DNA of 29,429 nucleotides from a virus: positions 1-29,429 of the IMG/VR virus record IMGVR_UViG_3300009104_001680. The stretch is one strand, 5' to 3'. A program made the position numbers and the translations under genes. Shown piece by piece: positions 1 through 18,626 of the stretch. Position 1 is the stretch's first letter. Each line of letters starts with the position of its first letter. The notes beneath the pieces were generated by a model, which searched no databases, had not been told where the DNA came from, and worked only from the letters and a program-made list of their open reading frames with translations.

Positions 1-204
1 TCACGACCTGAAGGTGTTACACTGTCAGACGATATTCTGAAAAGGAATTTTCTGATTAGCCTAAAGCGCGACATTAAAAAATCATTGGCATGGATTCGCT
101 CTCATGCGGTAATGTTTGACGATAATGCTAACGTTCGTTACACTATGCAAAACGAACTAATAAAAGCATATAATCCCGCTCAATATAATAAGAGGTTCGC
201 ATGA
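1..204 (+). CDS. C-terminal end of an unknown protein (partial)
   Basis: The frame is open from base 1 to a TGA at 202-204, giving the last 67 residues of a protein that begins outside the window. I do not recognise it. The tail is basic and mostly helical in character (around KRNFLISLKRDIKKSL), with no Cys cluster or membrane segment. The stop overlaps the ATG of the next gene (ATGA at 201-204), so the two are probably translationally coupled and share an operon with the polyphosphate kinase. Function unknown. Confidence 0.6.
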   Translation, partial: SRPEGVTLSDDILKRNFLISLKRDIKKSLAWIRSHAVMFDDNANVRYTMQNELIKAYNPAQYNKRFA

Positions 205-809
205 AAAAATTACAAGCAAAATTGAACGAATTGGCAGAAGCCAATACCCGCAAAATCGCGGTTGTGTTAGAGGGTCGAGATACTGCTGGTAAATCTCGCA
301 CAATTCGCACTGTTACGGAATACTTGAATCCGCAATGGTATTCGATTGTTCCATCCACTAAACCATCCGTTTCTGCAATGGCGAATTGGTGGCAATGGTG
401 GAATGGCAAAATGCCCGCTTTTAGTCAAATCGTTTTCTACGATAGAAGCTGGTATTCTCGTGCGATGGTTCAAAAAATCAATGGCTGGTGCTCTGAAAAC
501 CAATACAAAGCATTTTTGGACAGATACAAGCACTATGAAAACGAGGTTCACCATGATACCCGTTTTATCAAATTCTGGTTATCAATTTCTGAGGTTGAAC
601 AGAAAGCGCGAATAGAAGCGCGAAAAAAATCACCCCTAACATATTGGAAATTTTCCGAAAATGACGAAAACGCATTATCACACTATGACAGAATGACATT
701 GCTAAAAGAAAAGGTTGTTGGTGCTGACTGGATTGTGGTAGACTACAACAATAAACAAATCGGAATTGAAAACTTTTTAACTAAACTCATCGAGGAAATC
801 GAAAAATGA
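201..809 (+). CDS. PPK2-family polyphosphate kinase
   Basis: This 202-residue protein matches the polyphosphate kinase 2 family, which transfers phosphate between polyphosphate and nucleotides, usually in the direction that makes NDP/NTP from polyP. Visible motifs are a Walker A loop EGRDTAGKSRTI (about residues 24-35), a Walker B-type segment FYDRSWYSR (79-87) and a basic lid with the family's PLTYWKFSENDE-like segment (about 144-156). It is shorter than typical single-domain PPK2 proteins (about 230-300 aa), mainly at the N-terminus. The ATG overlaps the upstream stop, AAGAGG lies just upstream, and the 3' end overlaps the next ATG (ATGA, 806-809). In a phage it could recharge nucleotide pools from host polyP; that role and the class of acceptor are inference. 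Confidence 0.85.
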   Translation: MKKLQAKLNELAEANTRKIAVVLEGRDTAGKSRTIRTVTEYLNPQWYSIVPSTKPSVSAMANWWQWWNGKMPAFSQIVFYDRSWYSRAMVQKINGWCSENQYKAFLDRYKHYENEVHHDTRFIKFWLSISEVEQKARIEARKKSPLTYWKFSENDENALSHYDRMTLLKEKVVGADWIVVDYNNKQIGIENFLTKLIEEIEK

Positions 810-1369
810 AAATGCTTAAATCTACTGACTCACCAAACGAAATTGACGGCTCACCGTTTGACGATTTTGGTTTTAACTATCTTTGGAGACTTCACCATTT
901 AGAAAATTATGTACCAGCATTTTCTAACATGAATATTATCAAAAACGGCTTTGCAAAATATTGCCGCTCTGGTGGATTCTCTGGCGTTGAGGCTCGCATC
1001 ATAGAAACGCTAAAAGGTATAGAGGAATCTTTTGAAATTCCACGAGGCTCACTTGAAGCGGAATTGTTGGCGCTGACTACTGGCACGTTTAACGAGACAC
1101 TATCAAGCGAACAATTTTTTCATAAGAAAAATAAATCATGGCGGCTCGCTGGTTTGTTCCGCGATTTAAAAGCGAAAAATCAGAAACCCGTTGGCGGCCA
1201 TTCCGAATTTTTCAATATGCAAAATAAAAACGCTAAAGCGAAATTCGCAAATGCACAAAGACAGACGAACAAAAAAATCGGCTTGGACACTGTGACTTGG
1301 AAACGTGAAAACAATATTCACGGTTGCCCGACACCGTTAGAAAATCCTGACGAAATTGGGTACGCCTAA
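806..1369 (+). CDS. unknown protein of 187 aa
   Basis: Starts at an ATG overlapping the stop of the polyphosphate kinase gene and ends with TAA at 1367-1369, one base before the parS palindrome at 1370. The protein is basic in its C-terminal half (repeated Lys/Asn/Ala around residues 125-160) and acidic at the N-terminus. No family is recognised, and there is no signal peptide, membrane segment or zinc motif. The Lys-rich tail could bind nucleic acid. Being the last gene before the parS/repeat block, it may be a partner of that locus, but nothing in the sequence proves this. Confidence 0.6.
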   Translation: MKMLKSTDSPNEIDGSPFDDFGFNYLWRLHHLENYVPAFSNMNIIKNGFAKYCRSGGFSGVEARIIETLKGIEESFEIPRGSLEAELLALTTGTFNETLSSEQFFHKKNKSWRLAGLFRDLKAKNQKPVGGHSEFFNMQNKNAKAKFANAQRQTNKKIGLDTVTWKRENNIHGCPTPLENPDEIGYA

Positions 1370-1385
1370 TGTTTCACGTGAAACA
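1370..1385. promoter_or_regulatory. parS: perfect parS-type palindrome (ParB/Spo0J binding site)
   Basis: The 16-mer TGTTTCACGTGAAACA is a perfect palindrome and matches the conserved bacterial chromosomal parS consensus at every position. It begins right after the TAA of the preceding gene. parS is the loading site of the CTP-dependent clamp ParB in chromosome and plasmid segregation. No ParA or ParB gene lies in this window, so the reader protein would be the host ParB or a phage gene elsewhere. Binding itself is not shown by sequence. Confidence 0.8.
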
Positions 1386-1465: not shown

Positions 1466-1500
1466 GCGCCATTATAAGTGCAAAACCTAAGAATGTCAAG
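1466..1500 (+). repeat. iteron-like repeat copy 1
   Basis: A 35-bp unit starting GCGCCATTATAAGTGCAAAA and ending AATGTCAAG. It matches the copies at 1549 and 1663 in the order GCGCCA, GTGCAAAA, (T/G)AAGAA-like block and GTCAAG, and is followed by a T-run as in the other copies. Confidence 0.65.
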
Positions 1501-1867: not shown

Positions 1868-1896
1868 TTGACAACGGATTTAAATGCTGATATAAT
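1868..1896 (+). promoter_or_regulatory. sigma70 promoter, leaderless output
   Basis: TTGACA (1868-1873), 17-bp spacer and TATAAT (1891-1896). The predicted start of transcription falls on the A of the ATG at 1903, so the mRNA would be leaderless. Confidence 0.8.
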
Positions 1897-2088: not shown

Positions 2089-2311
2089 AGACGAAGTAGC
2101 CTTTGCTACAGAAGTAGTACGTAAGCTAATAATATCTAACATGAAGGATGACAGCCCTTTGCATCCAAAAGTTGCACGGGCTGAACTTACAGAACTGATA
2201 CTTATTGGTGAAGATTTAATGAATGACGCAGGGTGGGATGCTACCGACAACCCTTGTGAATTTAAGGTAGGAAATATTTGGAAAGGAAGGAAAAGATTTG
2301 TACAACGCTAA
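2075..2311 (+). CDS. hypothetical phage protein, 78 aa
   Basis: The start at 2075 (MKLSKDEV...) is chosen over an earlier in-frame ATG because AAAGGTAAAGG lies just upstream and the start overlaps the end of the preceding gene. The product is a soluble, mixed-charge, mainly helical protein (KLSKDEVAFATEVVRKLI...) without recognised motifs. It belongs to the early transcript from the promoter at 1868. The 3' end overlaps the TTG start of the metallopeptidase-like gene. Function unknown. Confidence 0.65.
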   Translation: MKLSKDEVAFATEVVRKLIISNMKDDSPLHPKVARAELTELILIGEDLMNDAGWDATDNPCEFKVGNIWKGRKRFVQR

Positions 2312-2732
2312 AGTAAAAAAGGGTTATTGGCCGAAAGGTAGGCAGCGCATGGTTATGCGGGCTGTTGCCTTTGCCCTTAACGAACTAAAGCTCCATGAGG
2401 AGGTTAGGGCGTATCCTTTAGAAGTCATCATGACTAAGTTCAGTGGTGACTACTACGGCGATTCTTGGATGCACGAAACAGGCTATGAAATACGCTTGAA
2501 CAGCCGATTTAACAACAAGCGGGTAGCCCAAAGCATATTCCATGAAATGACTCATGTAAAGCAGTTTGCTTTCGATGGGTTAGAGTTAGGCAGTCGTACC
2601 GACAAGTTCCGTGGTAAGAAGTACCGACGTGTGGATTACTGGGACGCTCCATGGGAGGTAGAGGCTAGAAAAATGGAGAAAAAATTACTACGAAAATGGA
2701 AAAAAATTGTTGACACGACACCTTACTTTTGA
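2298..2732 (+). CDS. predicted zinc metallopeptidase-like protein
   Basis: A 144-residue protein with an HExxHxxQ zinc-binding motif (FHEMTHVKQ, about residues 81-89) and a downstream Glu in PWEVEARKME (about 119-128) that could be the third ligand, an arrangement like SprT-like and related phage metallopeptidases. There is no signal peptide, so it should act in the cytoplasm. TTG is the start, with GGAAGGAAAAGA as ribosome binding site. The C-terminal coding end overlaps the next promoter. The substrate is unknown, and activity is inferred from the motif alone. Confidence 0.65.
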   Translation: MYNAKVKKGYWPKGRQRMVMRAVAFALNELKLHEEVRAYPLEVIMTKFSGDYYGDSWMHETGYEIRLNSRFNNKRVAQSIFHEMTHVKQFAFDGLELGSRTDKFRGKKYRRVDYWDAPWEVEARKMEKKLLRKWKKIVDTTPYF

Positions 2733-7721: not shown

Positions 7722-7888
7722 AATTTTATTGCTAATAGTACTAATATCGCTAATTGTATAAGTATTACTATTAGTAGTTCTAATCCTAATATAGTGTGAT
7801 ACCACACCCATCGCGTTTTATACGCATTTTCAATCGTCAAGTCGTCGGGGCTTGGCTCGCTCCAAAATTTTAACTTCTTTAACTTCAT
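7718..7888 (-). CDS. 56-aa membrane protein
   Basis: MKLKKLKFWSEPSPDDLTIE followed by WYHTILGLELLIVILIQLAI, a strongly hydrophobic C-terminal segment. It overlaps the A-type carrier stop at its start (ATGA) and bS21 at its end (ATGA), filling exactly the gap between them, which is good evidence that it is real. Basic N-terminus inside, one transmembrane helix. Function unknown. Confidence 0.7.
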   Translation of the reverse strand: MKLKKLKFWSEPSPDDLTIENAYKTRWVWYHTILGLELLIVILIQLAILVLLAIKL

Positions 7889-8196
7889 ACCGTAAAACTA
7901 ACACCGCAACCACATACGTCCTTTACATTTGGATTTTTTAATTTTAGTGACGATCCAAATAGTTCACTTACATAATCCACAGTGCTTCCTGCAACCGCTA
8001 ACTGTGCACCTTCTCCATGAATTACAATTAAATTCTCAATCACCTCATCTTTAGTACCAATATTATCAGTATAATCCCAATGGTAATTAAATCCTGCACA
8101 CCCACTAGGTTTAACACTTAAACGTACATATTCTTTGTTTTGCTGAAGACATTTATACTTAAGATATGTTCGTGCATAGTCAGTTATCTTTAACAT
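7885..8196 (-). CDS. A-type Fe-S carrier (IscA/ErpA/SufA family)
   Basis: A 103-residue protein with the three conserved cysteines of A-type carriers: Cys33 in KPSGCAGF and Cys95/Cys97 in VCGCG, at family spacing. These proteins receive Fe-S clusters from scaffolds and deliver them to apo-targets. Start 8196 (MLKITDY) is chosen because AGGAAAGGA precedes it; four codons upstream is another ATG. It directly follows iscU with a 17-nt overlap. Whether it is IscA-, ErpA- or SufA-like cannot be decided by eye. All ligands are intact, so it should be functional. Confidence 0.9.
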   Translation of the reverse strand: MLKITDYARTYLKYKCLQQNKEYVRLSVKPSGCAGFNYHWDYTDNIGTKDEVIENLIVIHGEGAQLAVAGSTVDYVSELFGSSLKLKNPNVKDVCGCGVSFTV

Positions 8197-8566
8197 TCCT
8201 TTCCTCATAGTCGCGTATCGCGGCCTTTATAGCGTCTTCTGCAAGTACGCTACAATGTATTTTTACAGGAGGTAGTGCAAGTTCTTCTGCTATTTGTACA
8301 TTTTTTATTTCTTCTGCTTCCCCTAGTGTTCTTCCTTTAACCCACTCTGTGAGCAAAGAGGATGAGGCAATCGCAGAGCCACACCCATAAGTCTTAAACT
8401 TAGCGTCTTTAATGACATTACCTTCTACCTTAATTTGTAGACGCATAACATCTCCACAGGAAGGTGCTCCCACCATACCTGTACCTATATTATTTTCTTT
8501 TGGATCAAACTTCCCTACGTTACGAGGATTCTCGTAATGATCCAATACTTTTTCTGAATATGCCAT
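8180..8566 (-). CDS. iscU: Fe-S cluster scaffold IscU
   Basis: A 128-residue protein of normal IscU length. Cluster ligands are all present: Cys37 and Asp39 (APSCGDV), Cys62 (TYGCGSAIASSS), His104 and Cys105 (KIHCSV). The LPPVK chaperone-recognition motif is at 98-102, so the host HscA/HscB pair could act on it. IscU assembles 2Fe-2S clusters with sulfur from IscS. No cysteine desulfurase is in the window, so sulfur would come from host IscS. Its start immediately follows the stop of the Cys-rich protein gene. Confidence 0.93.
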   Translation of the reverse strand: MAYSEKVLDHYENPRNVGKFDPKENNIGTGMVGAPSCGDVMRLQIKVEGNVIKDAKFKTYGCGSAIASSSLLTEWVKGRTLGEAEEIKNVQIAEELALPPVKIHCSVLAEDAIKAAIRDYEERNVKDN

Positions 8567-11439: not shown

Positions 11440-11585
11440 GCTGGGATTGGCATTGGATAAGTTGGTTTAAAGGAACACCTTTTCAATGGGGTGAATTTAG
11501 ATTTAATAGTGGTAATCCATATAAAAGTTATAGATGTGGACCATTACTTATTCGTGTGTTTATAGTGGAGGCATCGTCGCTATGA
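11436..11585 (+). CDS. 49-aa Trp-rich protein, copy 1 of a duplicated gene
   Basis: GTG start overlapping the lysozyme stop. The product begins MSWDWHWISWFKGTPFQWGE and is rich in Trp, Gly and aromatic residues, ending in FIVEASSL. It differs from the second copy (12250) at one residue besides the last few. The final codons overlap the thyX ATG (ATGA). Function unknown; the Trp-rich amphipathic N-terminus could contact a membrane. Confidence 0.65.
   Translation: MSWDWHWISWFKGTPFQWGEFRFNSGNPYKSYRCGPLLIRVFIVEASSL
11437..11573 (+). repeat. 137-bp direct repeat, left copy
   Basis: Runs from TGAGCTGGGATTGG to GTGGAGGCA and matches 12251-12387 with only two substitutions by my alignment. It encodes nearly all of the duplicated small protein. 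Confidence 0.9.
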
Positions 11586-11588
11586 GCT
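11565..11588 (+). repeat. 24-bp repeat at the left edge of thyX
   Basis: GTGGAGGCATCGTCGCTATG plus AGCT is identical at 12233-12256. It contains the ribosome binding site and ATG of thyX here, and the end of thyX plus the start of the next small gene there. Confidence 0.9.
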
Positions 11589-12253
11589 CTGTAAATATTG
11601 TTGCCTATACCCAAGCAAAGGTAGAGGCAGAGGATTTTATCGCTTATTGCGCTAGAGTCAGTAATCCAGAAAATCAAAATAATAGTAAGACAGCTCCCAA
11701 GCTGTTAGCTTACTTAATAAAAAACCAACACTGGAGCCCGTTCGAGATGGCTTCAGTAACTATGGAAATAGTAACTACACGTGATATTTCCCGTCAAATA
11801 CTGCGTCATCGCAGCTTTTCTTTTCAAGAGTTTTCTCAACGGTATGCTGTGTCAGAAGACTTTAGTTTGCGAGAAGCCAGGCTTCAAGATAAAAAGAATC
11901 GACAAAACTCTGTCCACCTTAACCCTGACTCTACTAAAGAGAGTGCTATTGAAGGACACTGGTATCTTCAACAAGCAGAGATTATAAAAAGAGCTAAAGA
12001 AGTTTATAAGTGGGCTTTAGAAGAAGGTATTGCAAAAGAACAAGCCAGAGCTATACTACCCGAAGGAAACACAGAAACAACCGTATATATGGCAGGTACT
12101 TTACGTAGCTGGATTCATTATTGCCAATTACGTAGAGCTAATGGTACTCAGCTAGAGCATCAAGAAATAGCTGAGATGTGTTGGAAAAAATTAGAAAGTA
12201 TATATCCTAATGTAATTGAAGCATGTGAATCGGTGGAGGCATCGTCGCTATGA
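11582..12253 (+). CDS. thyX: flavin-dependent thymidylate synthase ThyX
   Basis: A 223-residue enzyme converting dUMP to dTMP with methylene-tetrahydrofolate, FAD and NADPH. The signature RHRxxSxxxxSxR is present as RHRSFSFQEFSQR (75-87), and further conserved segments include QHWSPFEMASVTMEI and the C-terminal LPEGNTETTVYMAGTLRSWI. Start 11582 (MSSVNIVAYTQAKV) has GTGGAGG upstream and overlaps the stop of the small gene. The last residues (VEASSL) are encoded by the same 24 bases that end copy 1 of the duplicated gene, evidence that this gene was joined in by recombination at those repeats. Confidence 0.95.
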   Translation: MSSVNIVAYTQAKVEAEDFIAYCARVSNPENQNNSKTAPKLLAYLIKNQHWSPFEMASVTMEIVTTRDISRQILRHRSFSFQEFSQRYAVSEDFSLREARLQDKKNRQNSVHLNPDSTKESAIEGHWYLQQAEIIKRAKEVYKWALEEGIAKEQARAILPEGNTETTVYMAGTLRSWIHYCQLRRANGTQLEHQEIAEMCWKKLESIYPNVIEACESVEASSL

Positions 12254-12256: not shown

Positions 12257-12396
12257 GGGATTGGCATTGGATAAGTTGGTTTAAAGGAACACCTTTTCAA
12301 TGGGGTGAATTTAGATTTAATAGCGGTAATCCATATAAAAGTTATAGATGTGGACCATTACTTATTCGTGTGTTTATGGTGGAGGCAAATGGTTGA
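12250..12396 (+). CDS. 48-aa Trp-rich protein, copy 2 of a duplicated gene
   Basis: ATG start overlapping the thyX stop. Same sequence as the copy at 11436 (MSWDWHWISWFKGTPFQWGE...) up to residue 42, one change there (Ile to Met), and ending in VEANG instead of VEASSL. It overlaps the purM start by 8 nt, with GGTGGAGGC serving as the purM ribosome binding site. This copy is probably in the ancestral place next to purM or equally derived; direction cannot be told from one genome. Confidence 0.65.
   Translation: MSWDWHWISWFKGTPFQWGEFRFNSGNPYKSYRCGPLLIRVFMVEANG
12251..12387 (+). repeat. 137-bp direct repeat, right copy
   Basis: Matches 11437-11573 with two substitutions, offset 814 bp. Recombination between copies would delete thyX and one small gene cleanly. 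Confidence 0.9.
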
Positions 12397-13219
12397 TCAA
12401 TTAAAAGCAGATGAATTTGCAAAGTACCTAGGTTTTAGTGAGTTTGCTGCGCGTCTTCCAAGAGGTAATAAGGATATTTATATAACCTGCGACGGGGTCG
12501 GAACAAAACTATATGTAGCAAACTGGTATAAAAAATGGGATACTATAGGTATAGATTTGGTTGCTATGTGTGCAAATGACCTTCTAGCTTGCGGAGCAAC
12601 GCCTTCAGCTTTCATGGACTACTATGCGGTAGATACTTTAAACCTTGATAAAAGTAAAGAAATTATTAAAGGTATTAAAAAGGGCTGTGAATTAGCAGGA
12701 TGTGAATTAGTAGGAGGAGAAACTGCCCAATTAGAAGGAGTCTTTGGATCCCCTCAGGGTTTTGATCTCTGTGGGTTTGCCATCGGAGAAGTACACCAAC
12801 GAACTAGAATACATTCTAAATTACAAACTCCTAAGGCAGGGGATTATCTTGTAGGAATTCCAAGTAGTGGATTACATAGTAATGGTTTTACTCAAATTAA
12901 AAATACATTAGGGCGAGCAGAGTGGATGCTAGAACCTACTCGTATTTATACTAAAGAAATAATTAGTAATTTAGCTAGGATTAAAAGGTGCGCCCATATA
13001 ACAGGAGGGGGTATAGTTAGAAATCTAAAACGTATTTTGAATGGAAGAACTTATCACTTATTTAACAGACCTTTTGAAGGTATATGGGAAATTGTATCCA
13101 GTAAATTTGATCGTGATGAAATGTTAAATACTTTTAATTGCGGTTGGGGTATGATTTTAATTACAGATACCTTAGACCTAAACCTTGAAGATGCAGAACA
13201 TATAGGAAATGTAATATGA
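12389..13219 (+). CDS. purM: phosphoribosylformylglycinamidine cyclo-ligase PurM (AIR synthetase), shortened
   Basis: A 276-residue version of the ATP-dependent enzyme that closes the imidazole ring in purine synthesis (usual bacterial length about 345). Conserved blocks are in order: CDGVGTKLYVANWY, IGIDLVAMCANDLLACGATP, ELVGGETAQLEGVF, VGIPSSGLHSNGF, HITGGGIVRNL. It lacks part of the normal N-terminus and C-terminal region. Start 12389 (MVDQLKADEF) follows GGTGGAGGC; the longer frame from 12305 overlaps the small duplicated gene. purM is known as an auxiliary gene in cyanophages. It would raise purine nucleotide supply if active. Confidence 0.9.
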   Translation: MVDQLKADEFAKYLGFSEFAARLPRGNKDIYITCDGVGTKLYVANWYKKWDTIGIDLVAMCANDLLACGATPSAFMDYYAVDTLNLDKSKEIIKGIKKGCELAGCELVGGETAQLEGVFGSPQGFDLCGFAIGEVHQRTRIHSKLQTPKAGDYLVGIPSSGLHSNGFTQIKNTLGRAEWMLEPTRIYTKEIISNLARIKRCAHITGGGIVRNLKRILNGRTYHLFNRPFEGIWEIVSSKFDRDEMLNTFNCGWGMILITDTLDLNLEDAEHIGNVI

Positions 13220-14224: not shown

Positions 14225-14710
14225 ATGTTACATATTTTAGAAGAGTTGTTAGATACAATTAAGCCAAAGAAAACAAGTTCAAAATTATTGTTGGCTGCAG
14301 GAATTACTTCATCGCAACAGTCTGTATTAATACAAGCAGGTAATAGATTAGAAGATTTTTGGAATCATTGTACGGATACTCTTGATGATAGTGCATCAAG
14401 TCGTCAAGTGGATTTTTTCTTTGAAAAAGGAGGGAAAAAATATTACTTTGAATTAAAGTCAAATACTAACTTAGATTCTGAAAAAGCTCCCGCCACTATA
14501 GAAAAAGTGAAAAAAGTAGCTAAAGAATTAGAAGCAGATATATTTGGTATCCTTAACCCAGTACGATTTGATGATTACTATGAATCTAAGTTGTCCCAAA
14601 CAATATTTGGTGTTCAAAGTATGATTGACCTTTTGGAACTACCTTTCACTGTAGAACAATATCAAGCTGTATTAGCAAAAAAATTAAAAGAGAAGTTAGT
14701 AGGATGTTAA
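14225..14710 (+). CDS. PD-(D/E)XK nuclease-like protein, candidate restriction endonuclease
   Basis: A 161-residue protein with a PD-(D/E)XK signature: Asp63 in SRQVDFFFEKGG, then YYFELKSN giving Glu76 and Lys78, on consecutive predicted strands. A helical N-terminal part precedes it, and a helical region (ATIEKVKKVAKELEAD) follows. Type II restriction enzymes often have just this layout. Its stop codon overlaps the ATG of a DNA adenine methylase, and both share one promoter, supporting a restriction-modification pair. It could instead be a recombination or DNA-degrading nuclease whose cut is blocked by the methylase. No recognised family name; specificity unknown. Confidence 0.6.
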   Translation: MLHILEELLDTIKPKKTSSKLLLAAGITSSQQSVLIQAGNRLEDFWNHCTDTLDDSASSRQVDFFFEKGGKKYYFELKSNTNLDSEKAPATIEKVKKVAKELEADIFGILNPVRFDDYYESKLSQTIFGVQSMIDLLELPFTVEQYQAVLAKKLKEKLVGC

Positions 14711-15639
14711 AACCAATAGTTAAGTACCAAGGGGGTAAATCAAAAGAAATTCCTGTTATTAAACAATACGCTAAGAATGCTACTAGGATTGTTGAGCCGT
14801 TTGCAGGAGGCGCTGCAGCAGCTTTTTATTTAGGTAAGCCTTCTGTATTATGTGACGTATATCACAATGTAATAAATCTATATCAAGTAGTGGCTAACCC
14901 AGATCATTTTACACAACTTCTGCAAGATGTAGAAACGTTAAAGGATGCAGAACATGATGACTTAGAGGCAGAGTATTATGTTGCTCGAGATTATATAAAT
15001 GAGCATAAAAATTCTACAGACTACGACCCTCAAAAAGCATACTATTATATAGTACTTCGTCAACTTTGTTTCTCTGGAATGGAGAGATACAATGCTGATG
15101 GAGATTTTAATGTGCCTTTTGGGCACTATAAAAGTTTTTCATGTAATTTAGAATCAAAGCATCACGAGTTTTTACAAATCTGTGAGCTTATTCATGGAAG
15201 CTTTGAAGAAGTACAAGTATTGGAAGGAGATTTTGTGTTTATAGATCCCCCATATTTAGATAGACTGGGTTATACAAAAGGGGACGGCTCTTTAGAGCTA
15301 CATAAAAATTTACTAAAATGGACACAAAAGTTAACAACAAATTGGCTTTTAATACATTCAGATCATGAATTTTACTTTGAAAATTACTCACATATTTTAA
15401 CTAATGAGTTTGGCTATTCTCAACGTTTTGGTAAAGACAAAGATCACTCAAATGCTAAAACGTATCATTTATATATAAGTAATGAGCCGAAAGAAATTAA
15501 ATTTTCTTCAGGCACAAAAGAAGGATTACAAATAGAATTAACAGATTTAATTAGAGATGCAGGGTTAGAAGTGGACAGTTCGATAATCTCTAAACTAACT
15601 GGCAAAGCTGCTCAGTATTTTATTAATGTACTATCTTAA
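14704..15639 (+). CDS. DNA adenine methylase (Dam/D12 class) with extra C-terminal domain
   Basis: A 311-residue N6-adenine methyltransferase. Visible motifs: VKYQGGKSKEI (motif X, 6-16), VEPFAGGAAAAF (motif I, 30-41), CDVYHNVINLY (50-60) and VFIDPPYLDR (motif IV, DPPY 181-184). The residues from about 275 to the end are not part of the D12 fold; they match the C-terminal domain of the HTH protein at 15704, including 13 identical residues starting IISKLTGKAAQ. The target site cannot be read from sequence (GATC is typical for the class). It overlaps the nuclease-like gene by 7 nt. Confidence 0.9.
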   Translation: MLKPIVKYQGGKSKEIPVIKQYAKNATRIVEPFAGGAAAAFYLGKPSVLCDVYHNVINLYQVVANPDHFTQLLQDVETLKDAEHDDLEAEYYVARDYINEHKNSTDYDPQKAYYYIVLRQLCFSGMERYNADGDFNVPFGHYKSFSCNLESKHHEFLQICELIHGSFEEVQVLEGDFVFIDPPYLDRLGYTKGDGSLELHKNLLKWTQKLTTNWLLIHSDHEFYFENYSHILTNEFGYSQRFGKDKDHSNAKTYHLYISNEPKEIKFSSGTKEGLQIELTDLIRDAGLEVDSSIISKLTGKAAQYFINVLS

Positions 15640-16194: not shown

Positions 16195-16461
16195 GTGAAA
16201 AAGGACGAACTAGCTTCTCTTGTAAATGAGTATGGTGATGCAATCATCACTTTTCGTAGTGAGAATTCAAGAAAGTTAAAGTACAATGTATGTACCGCCG
16301 ACTTTAGCACACCTTACATCCAGAGTAAAAAGAATAGAGCGAAAGAATCTGATGAAACCCTACTACTTTTTTGTTGGGACACAGATTCTTATCGCTTATT
16401 AAAACCTAAGAATGTAACGAGTGTTGTTCCCTTGGCTTCTGTATTGAGGAACGACAAATGA
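16195..16461 (+). CDS. hypothetical phage protein, 88 aa
   Basis: GTG start with AAGGAG upstream. The product begins MKKDELASLVNEYGDAIITF and carries a conserved-looking end (LLLFCWDTDSYRLLKPKNVT, SVVPLASVLRN), a motif I associate with proteins of T4-like marine phages. A small beta-rich domain is likely. The stop overlaps the start of the PC4-like gene, so the two are coupled. No promoter is seen right upstream; the short gap after the terminator holds a GTAAAA/TTTTAC hairpin. Confidence 0.65.
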   Translation: MKKDELASLVNEYGDAIITFRSENSRKLKYNVCTADFSTPYIQSKKNRAKESDETLLLFCWDTDSYRLLKPKNVTSVVPLASVLRNDK

Positions 16462-17855: not shown

Positions 17856-18626
17856 ATGCAAGCTATAATTGCTCCTGAGAGTTGCCCTTCTTGTAGGACA
17901 GCTTTGGAGTGGCGGTCTGACTTACTCTACTGTAATAATGACTTATGCGGAGCACAGGTATCCAAACGGCTTGAACACTGGGGCAAGACCTTAAAGATTA
18001 AAGGACTTGGACCTCGTACGATAGAAAAGTTGGAAGTAGAAAATCTCTATGAGTTATACGATTTAACCGAAGAGATGATTATAGAAAGACTTTCCTCTGA
18101 AAAATTGGGTGAGAAGCTCTATATGGAACTTCAAAACTCTAAAACCGCATCTATGAATGCGGTGTTACCGGCTTTCAGTATACCTTTGATCGGAAAGTCT
18201 GCAACTGAGAAACTATCAAAGTATCTTACATATATATTTGAACTAAGAACTGATAAGTGTCAAAAGGCAGGACTAGGACCAAAGGCAACTGAAAATTTAA
18301 TGCATTGGTATGAGTTAGAATTTATTCCTTTTTTACAAGATTTACCTTTTGATTGGAAATTCGAAGAGGCACAAACTGTGAGATATAGTAGAGGAACAAT
18401 TTGTATTAGTGGTAAACTTACAAGTTTTAAAACTAAAGCACAAGCAGAAGATGTTTTAACTCGAAAAGGATATATAGTAAAAAATAGTCTTACCAAGGAT
18501 GTATCCATTTTAGTGAATGAATCCGGTATAGAGTCTGCAAAGACAAAACAAGCCCGAGAAAAGGGCATTAAAATTATAACTAATCTACTAGATTTTATAG
18601 GAGAAATCAATGGCGACGTTGCCTAA
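17856..18626 (+). CDS. NAD-dependent DNA ligase, C-terminal subunit (Zn finger, HhH, BRCT)
   Basis: 256 residues supplying what the upstream gene lacks: a four-Cys zinc finger (Cys10, 13, 26, 31: ESCPSCRTALEW, YCNNDLCGAQV), helix-hairpin-helix DNA-binding repeats (LKIKGLGPRTIEKLE, about 47-61; further units to about 165) and a C-terminal BRCT domain (about 175-250: GTICISGKLTSFKTKAQAED...). Together the two proteins should reconstitute a full ligase. Its own promoter allows independent dosage of the DNA-binding half. It overlaps the next gene by 17 nt. Confidence 0.9.
   Translation: MQAIIAPESCPSCRTALEWRSDLLYCNNDLCGAQVSKRLEHWGKTLKIKGLGPRTIEKLEVENLYELYDLTEEMIIERLSSEKLGEKLYMELQNSKTASMNAVLPAFSIPLIGKSATEKLSKYLTYIFELRTDKCQKAGLGPKATENLMHWYELEFIPFLQDLPFDWKFEEAQTVRYSRGTICISGKLTSFKTKAQAEDVLTRKGYIVKNSLTKDVSILVNESGIESAKTKQAREKGIKIITNLLDFIGEINGDVA

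Follow-up and report, generated by a model that had tools for sequence, protein, structure and literature searches.

Chromosomal ParABS systems, plasmid parasites and extrachromosomal prophages provide the closest described counterparts of the site analysed here. In the chromosomal systems, parS (consensus TGTTTCACGTGAAACA; PMC10197239, PMC7022226) tolerates variation at positions 1 and 5 in one published consensus (PMC7022226), and PMC9242446 describes ParB as loading at parS, forming clamps with CTP and redistributing over up to ~15 kb; excess ParB silences neighbouring genes (PMC7022226). The integrative element SGI1 (PMC10954446) proves the principle of a genetic parasite that carries parS mimics but no matching ParB and exploits the ParABS system of another replicon, the IncC plasmid. 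Extrachromosomal prophages such as mycobacteriophage RedRock (PMC7157519) likewise have a centromere-like site on a phage genome, served by their own ParA and ParB and composed of 8-bp repeat arrays.

The site described here shares with chromosomal parS the identical 16-mer and the tolerated variants, and it may likewise lie beside a replication origin, but its carrier is a phage genome in which neither parA nor parB is recognisable, and it is usually present in single copy. SGI1 has two copies of its site, relies on a plasmid-encoded ParB and has been demonstrated experimentally, whereas here the carrier is a T5-like phage, the site is of chromosomal type and we infer the use of a host ParB. 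In contrast to the RedRock-type prophages, neither par proteins nor 8-bp arrays were found. No paper on phages with an orphan chromosomal parS was found in a literature search that covered mainly open-access journal papers.

The window is the whole 29,429-bp stretch of IMGVR_UViG_3300009104_001680, a viral contig that is an incomplete record and a metagenomic fragment. A sequence-only reading had reported an exact parS match in it, and the match is indeed 16/16 to the chromosomal consensus; taking as parS any 16-bp palindrome that fits TGTTNCACGTGAAACA or the consensus, the site belongs to this class at all 16 positions. That reading also held a chance match to be very improbable, which agrees with the 1.1e-5 exact copies expected in the window from base composition. 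The window contains no second site at ≤3 mismatches to TGTTTCACGTGAAACA, and dinucleotide shuffles give a mean of 0.12 sites per window at that threshold. The placement that it described, directly after a stop codon and at the edge of a repeat-bearing non-coding block, is likewise accurate: the codon is the TAA at 1367–1369 of the 187-aa ORF at 806–1369, and the block runs for ~0.5 kb to ~1900 without convincing genes. The features of the region are as follows.

201–809, plus strand: gene for a PPK2-family polyphosphate kinase (PF03976, E 1.2e-43; synteny)
806–1369, plus strand: gene for a 187-aa lineage-specific protein, whose stop codon abuts parS in the window
1370–1385, no strand: parS-type palindrome TGTTTCACGTGAAACA, exact, single-copy and kept in relatives
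1386–1406, no strand: GC-rich stem-loop CGGGCGG-CACCCCA-CCGCCCG, seen in the sequence and not conserved in the alignment of relatives
1415–1428, no strand: GGCGCGCGGGCGCC inverted repeat (GGCGCG..GCGCC), from the alignment across the lineage
1463–1743, no strand: three imperfect 84-bp direct repeats (1463–1546, 1546–1629, 1660–1743)
1471–1499, minus strand: leftward sigma70-type promoter-like site (12/12; consensus match only)
1582–1554 and 1696–1668, minus strand: leftward promoter-like sites (10/12 and 11/12; consensus match only)
1808–1831, no strand: highly conserved CCCCGCGCGCGGCCCCCCGGAATT element, a handle for fetching relatives
1868–1896, plus strand: rightward sigma70-type promoter-like site, for early genes (12/12; consensus match only)
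2298–2732, plus strand: HExxH metallopeptidase-like early gene (alignment, scan), which marks the control block in relatives

The palindrome closes the PPK2/187-aa gene block, and the GGCGCG..GCGCC inverted repeat, the best-conserved stretch after parS at this end, stands at the start of a control block rich in promoter-like sites and repeats; the usual spacing across the lineage places parS ~40–90 bp ahead of the inverted repeat. Each 84-bp repeat holds one promoter-like site on the minus strand, and these three tandem near-consensus sigma70-type sites (1471–1696), which are repeated in relatives, face the PPK2 and 187-aa genes in antisense orientation. The 187-aa protein has no match in Pfam, PHROG or NCBIfam; its relatives are 73–80% identical, and its structure model, of low confidence (mean pLDDT 56.5), was left unused. 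A PPK2-type polyphosphate kinase is encoded by these phages and its gene adjoins the parS site in most relatives checked; in several of them the PPK2 stop codon can fall inside the site (TGT TCC ACG TGA). Coding constraint was considered as the cause of the palindrome and rejected, because the site lies outside both genes in the window and in L131, L138 and L139, so that protein constraint cannot explain it. The HExxH early protein belongs to no named family and is widespread in viral contigs, with 309 relatives.

Relatives were gathered in three ways independent of the palindrome, through the 187-aa protein, the conserved CCCCGCGCGCGGCCCCCCGRAATT element and the HExxH early protein, some contigs being counted under more than one locus id. 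Conservation in related phages, on which the sequence-only reading had staked its claim, extends across a diverse lineage in both position and core sequence: a parS-type site with the GTTYCACGTGRAAC core recurs at one place in relatives down to 59% polymerase identity. Among relatives found by the 187-aa protein, every contig reaching far enough has the site (TGTTCCACGTGAAACA in six, GGTTCCACGTGAAACA in L123). The CCCCGCGCGCGGCCCCCCGRAATT element retrieved it in L131 (GGTTTCACGTGAAACA), L133, L135, L136, L137, L138 (in two copies), L139 and L142; L140 ends too early, and L132, L134 and L141, a divergent subclade with the same control block, have no site, possibly because their host could lack ParB. 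Of the contigs found through the HExxH protein, 20 contain the GGCGCG..GCGCC element, and the core is intact in 18 of these, the other two being L230, where the site is degenerate (TGTTCCATGTGAAACA), and L200, where there is none; the remaining homologs of this protein have no core site within 1.7 kb. In a nine-sequence alignment of the block the 16-mer of the site has a mean pairwise identity of 93% versus 40% for the average 16-mer, and the sequence directly upstream is unrelated. Variation falls mainly at positions 1, 5, 12 and 16, and several lineages carry the fully symmetric TGTTCCACGTGGAACA. The search for further copies that had been proposed found one site each in a complete 77.9-kb relative and in two near-complete ones.

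That complete relative, G010 (IMGVR_UViG_3300020370_000002), is an 82,805-bp record with a perfect 4,911-bp terminal overlap, which makes it a complete genome of 77,894 bp. The two others, G027 (94.6 kb) and G028 (91.8 kb), are termed near-complete because the adjoining replication genes D5 and DnaB lie at opposite contig ends. By gene homology these marine siphoviruses are kin of the Demerecviridae (T5, Vibrio phage pVp-1 and others), with a homologous polymerase, terminase and D5-like regulator together with siphovirus tape-measure and head proteins: the window polymerase is ~44% identical to those of Vibrio, Aeromonas and enteric Demerecviridae, a 243-aa protein at 18610 in the window matches the D5-like regulator family, and G010 encodes a terminase ~50% identical to those of T5-like phages as well as portal, head and tape-measure proteins. 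The differences are the polymerase identity, which is only that ~44%, and genome size, 78–95 kb here versus 110–128 kb in Demerecviridae. The GTTNCACGTGNAAC core is absent from ten of ten cultured Demerecviridae, each searched whole, and the site is thus not general in T5-like phages. The window also holds auxiliary genes at 7885–8566 (minus strand), 11534–12253, 12305–13219 and 14704–15639; the products encoded in these four regions are IscU and an IscA/SufA-type Fe-S protein, ThyX, PurM and a Dam-family methyltransferase.

The sequence-only reading had seen no parAB in view and had offered, among other uses, a ParB encoded elsewhere in the genome or stable maintenance as a prophage-plasmid. 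The first observation is correct for the window and for complete G010; since the window is an incomplete 29.4-kb record, the absence of Par domains from it alone would prove little. Profile searches, in which control genomes matched as expected, found no ParB_N (PF02195) in the window, in complete G010, in near-complete G027 and G028 or in other relatives, and neither HTH_ParB (PF17762) nor ParA-type AAA_31 (PF13614) in seven records including the window and G010. An own ParB or ParA elsewhere was accordingly rejected as the partner of the site, and an own ParB is unlikely given complete and near-complete relatives devoid of ParB domains, with the proviso that the profiles could miss a ParB-like protein that has diverged far enough. 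No complete ParABS system, with a cognate ParB and a ParA ATPase in the same genome, was recognised. Maintenance as a prophage-plasmid finds no support either: tyrosine integrase (PF00589) is absent from 12 records, the phages are T5-like, and neither mark of a phage-plasmid or plasmid-prophage, par genes or an integrase, was found.

The site lies close to a switch in strand and GC skew. In G010 (circle rotated) the GC-skew minimum is at 69,571, coinciding with the CCCCGCGCGCGGCCCCCCGGAATT element, and the site is at 69,947, 376 bp away; in G009 the two are 430 bp apart (22,885 and 23,315). The distance is 2.4–6.1 kb in G033, G030 and G027, and in G028 the global minimum is ~17 kb from the site, which marks only a local minimum. 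Gene orientation switches in the same region; because GC skew follows gene orientation here, the skew minimum is no independent proof of an origin, and a replication origin beside the site is plausible.

With respect to the host, a close polymerase (73% identical) occurs on a single contig from cellular genomes, which is binned in Halieaceae MAG MED611, a weak host assignment that could reflect a binning error. MED611 encodes ParB and has two chromosomal TGTTCCACGTGGAACA sites 624 bp apart. Among this MAG and its relatives, 32 of 38 genomes carry parS sites, mostly TGTTCCACGTGGAACA, some TGTTTCACGTGAAACA or a mixed form. Positions 5 and 12, the only ones allowed to vary in the search pattern for chromosomal sites, vary there as they do in the phage sites. 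As the letters are the same as in those chromosomal sites, the phage sites use host-type letters.

Taken together, the conservation of the site and the missing ParB domains favour the core of the original idea, a host-type parS that rides on host ParB, the use of that ParB being the part that we infer. The palindrome is very probably a ParB-binding site under selection at which host ParB would load, and the best reading overall, which we consider probable, is that a phage with no recognisable ParB of its own has retained a loading site for host ParB. On phage DNA that is entering the cell or being replicated, the palindrome would be recognised by host ParB, which would load at it as a clamp dependent on CTP and then spread across the control block and the probable origin. 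The phage origin region might then be treated like a host centromere, ParA-bound on the nucleoid and positioned, and host condensin may be delivered to it; phage replication would add ever more sites, which would also take ParB away from the host chromosome. The likeliest main benefit to the phage would be positioning or condensin loading at its origin, a suggestion that we make tentatively, with somewhat less than even confidence.

Among the alternatives, the site may act mainly by dose as a decoy, many phage copies stripping ParB from the chromosome and upsetting segregation in the host, while phage DNA would not be positioned. The parS-like sites of SGI1 do this to plasmid ParB, producing dose-dependent incompatibility (PMC10954446), and the phage sites would multiply with replication; however, a pure decoy would be free to sit anywhere and would be expected in arrays, whereas in most genomes only one copy occurs, in a constant position next to the control block, and we regard titration as the main function as improbable. 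Equally improbable is a role in transcription control, in which loaded ParB would cover or block the leftward promoters and the early rightward promoter and so tune phage transcription. The closest leftward promoter-like sequence has its -10 hexamer ~86 bp before the parS site, and ~480 bp separate the site from the rightward promoter-like sequence, distances to be set beside the up to ~15 kb of redistribution described in PMC9242446 and the silencing of neighbouring genes by ParB excess (PMC7022226). The promoters are, however, consensus matches only, and a lytic phage would gain little if the host silenced its early genes.

It is less likely still that a regulator or replication protein encoded by the phage binds the palindrome and that the identity with parS is convergent. 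The lineage does encode several small DNA-binding proteins, but convergence does not readily account for an exact bacterial consensus with chromosomal-type variation, or for the same 16-mer in unrelated phages such as the HTVC023P/HTVC027P-like podovirus cluster. An RNA hairpin or terminator, in which the symmetry would serve an RNA stem and not protein binding, has very little probability: UGUUUC-ACGU-GAAACA folds within the leftward transcript, but the stem is weak and is followed by no U-run, there is no Rfam match, all core letters are conserved beyond mere pairing, and in the common TGTTCCACGTGAAACA variant one pair becomes a C-A mismatch or G-U wobble. That chance, or contamination of the assembly with bacterial DNA, produced the palindrome is conceivable for a window that is a metagenomic fragment but is contradicted by its recurrence at the same place, between phage genes, in contigs of the lineage that were assembled independently and include a complete one, and has a negligible probability.

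Across IMG/VR, each of two parS palindromes occurs in at least 120 stretches, versus 1 and 6 for two control palindromes, an enrichment that is a lower bound. Among the matches listed, no ORF of ≥100 aa covers 86 of 146 sites, which holds for 22% of random positions; because the site was the basis on which these loci were picked, and some of them may be cellular DNA, they indicate enrichment and not function. One shared protein motif behind the at least 120 matches was rejected, the in-frame peptides being diverse. ParB_N was absent from 46 of 50 further parS-bearing contigs and was above the cut-off in three of the other four. Among 120 listed exact-consensus loci, 44 share proteins and resemble HTVC023P/HTVC027P-type podoviruses, and in about a dozen podovirus-like loci the frame for the terminase large subunit starts within ~130 bp of the site. 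Members of this HTVC023P/HTVC027P-like cluster with an exact parS, which are unrelated to the T5-like lineage, include L007, L027, L042, L066, L088, L097, L101, L111, L119 and L120. Support from an isolate, Pelagibacter phage HTVC027P (CGTTTCACGTGAAACA, 16412–16427), was set aside because that site falls in an apparent nuclease frame and is missing from five further records of the group (two of them searched only in part). Two further loci, L017 and L044, have five exact parS copies within ~0.8–0.9 kb, which makes them resemble centromere arrays; the sequence retrieved for these two loci showed no ParB homolog. It is a nearly even proposition that unrelated phage lineages, many of them marine, have independently kept chromosomal parS without a recognisable ParB, as a widespread and undescribed "centromere piracy" that would use host ParB and possibly condensin.

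The conserved control module points to a probable origin in a marine phage group of wide distribution. Few segregation machines of bacteria are as conserved as ParB-parS, and if host ParB loads at the phage origin, the chromosome segregation system would be a host factor in infection. Should this be true, existing ParB tools could serve the study of phage DNA positioning, and the type of parS that a phage carries could hint at the host range of uncultured phages.
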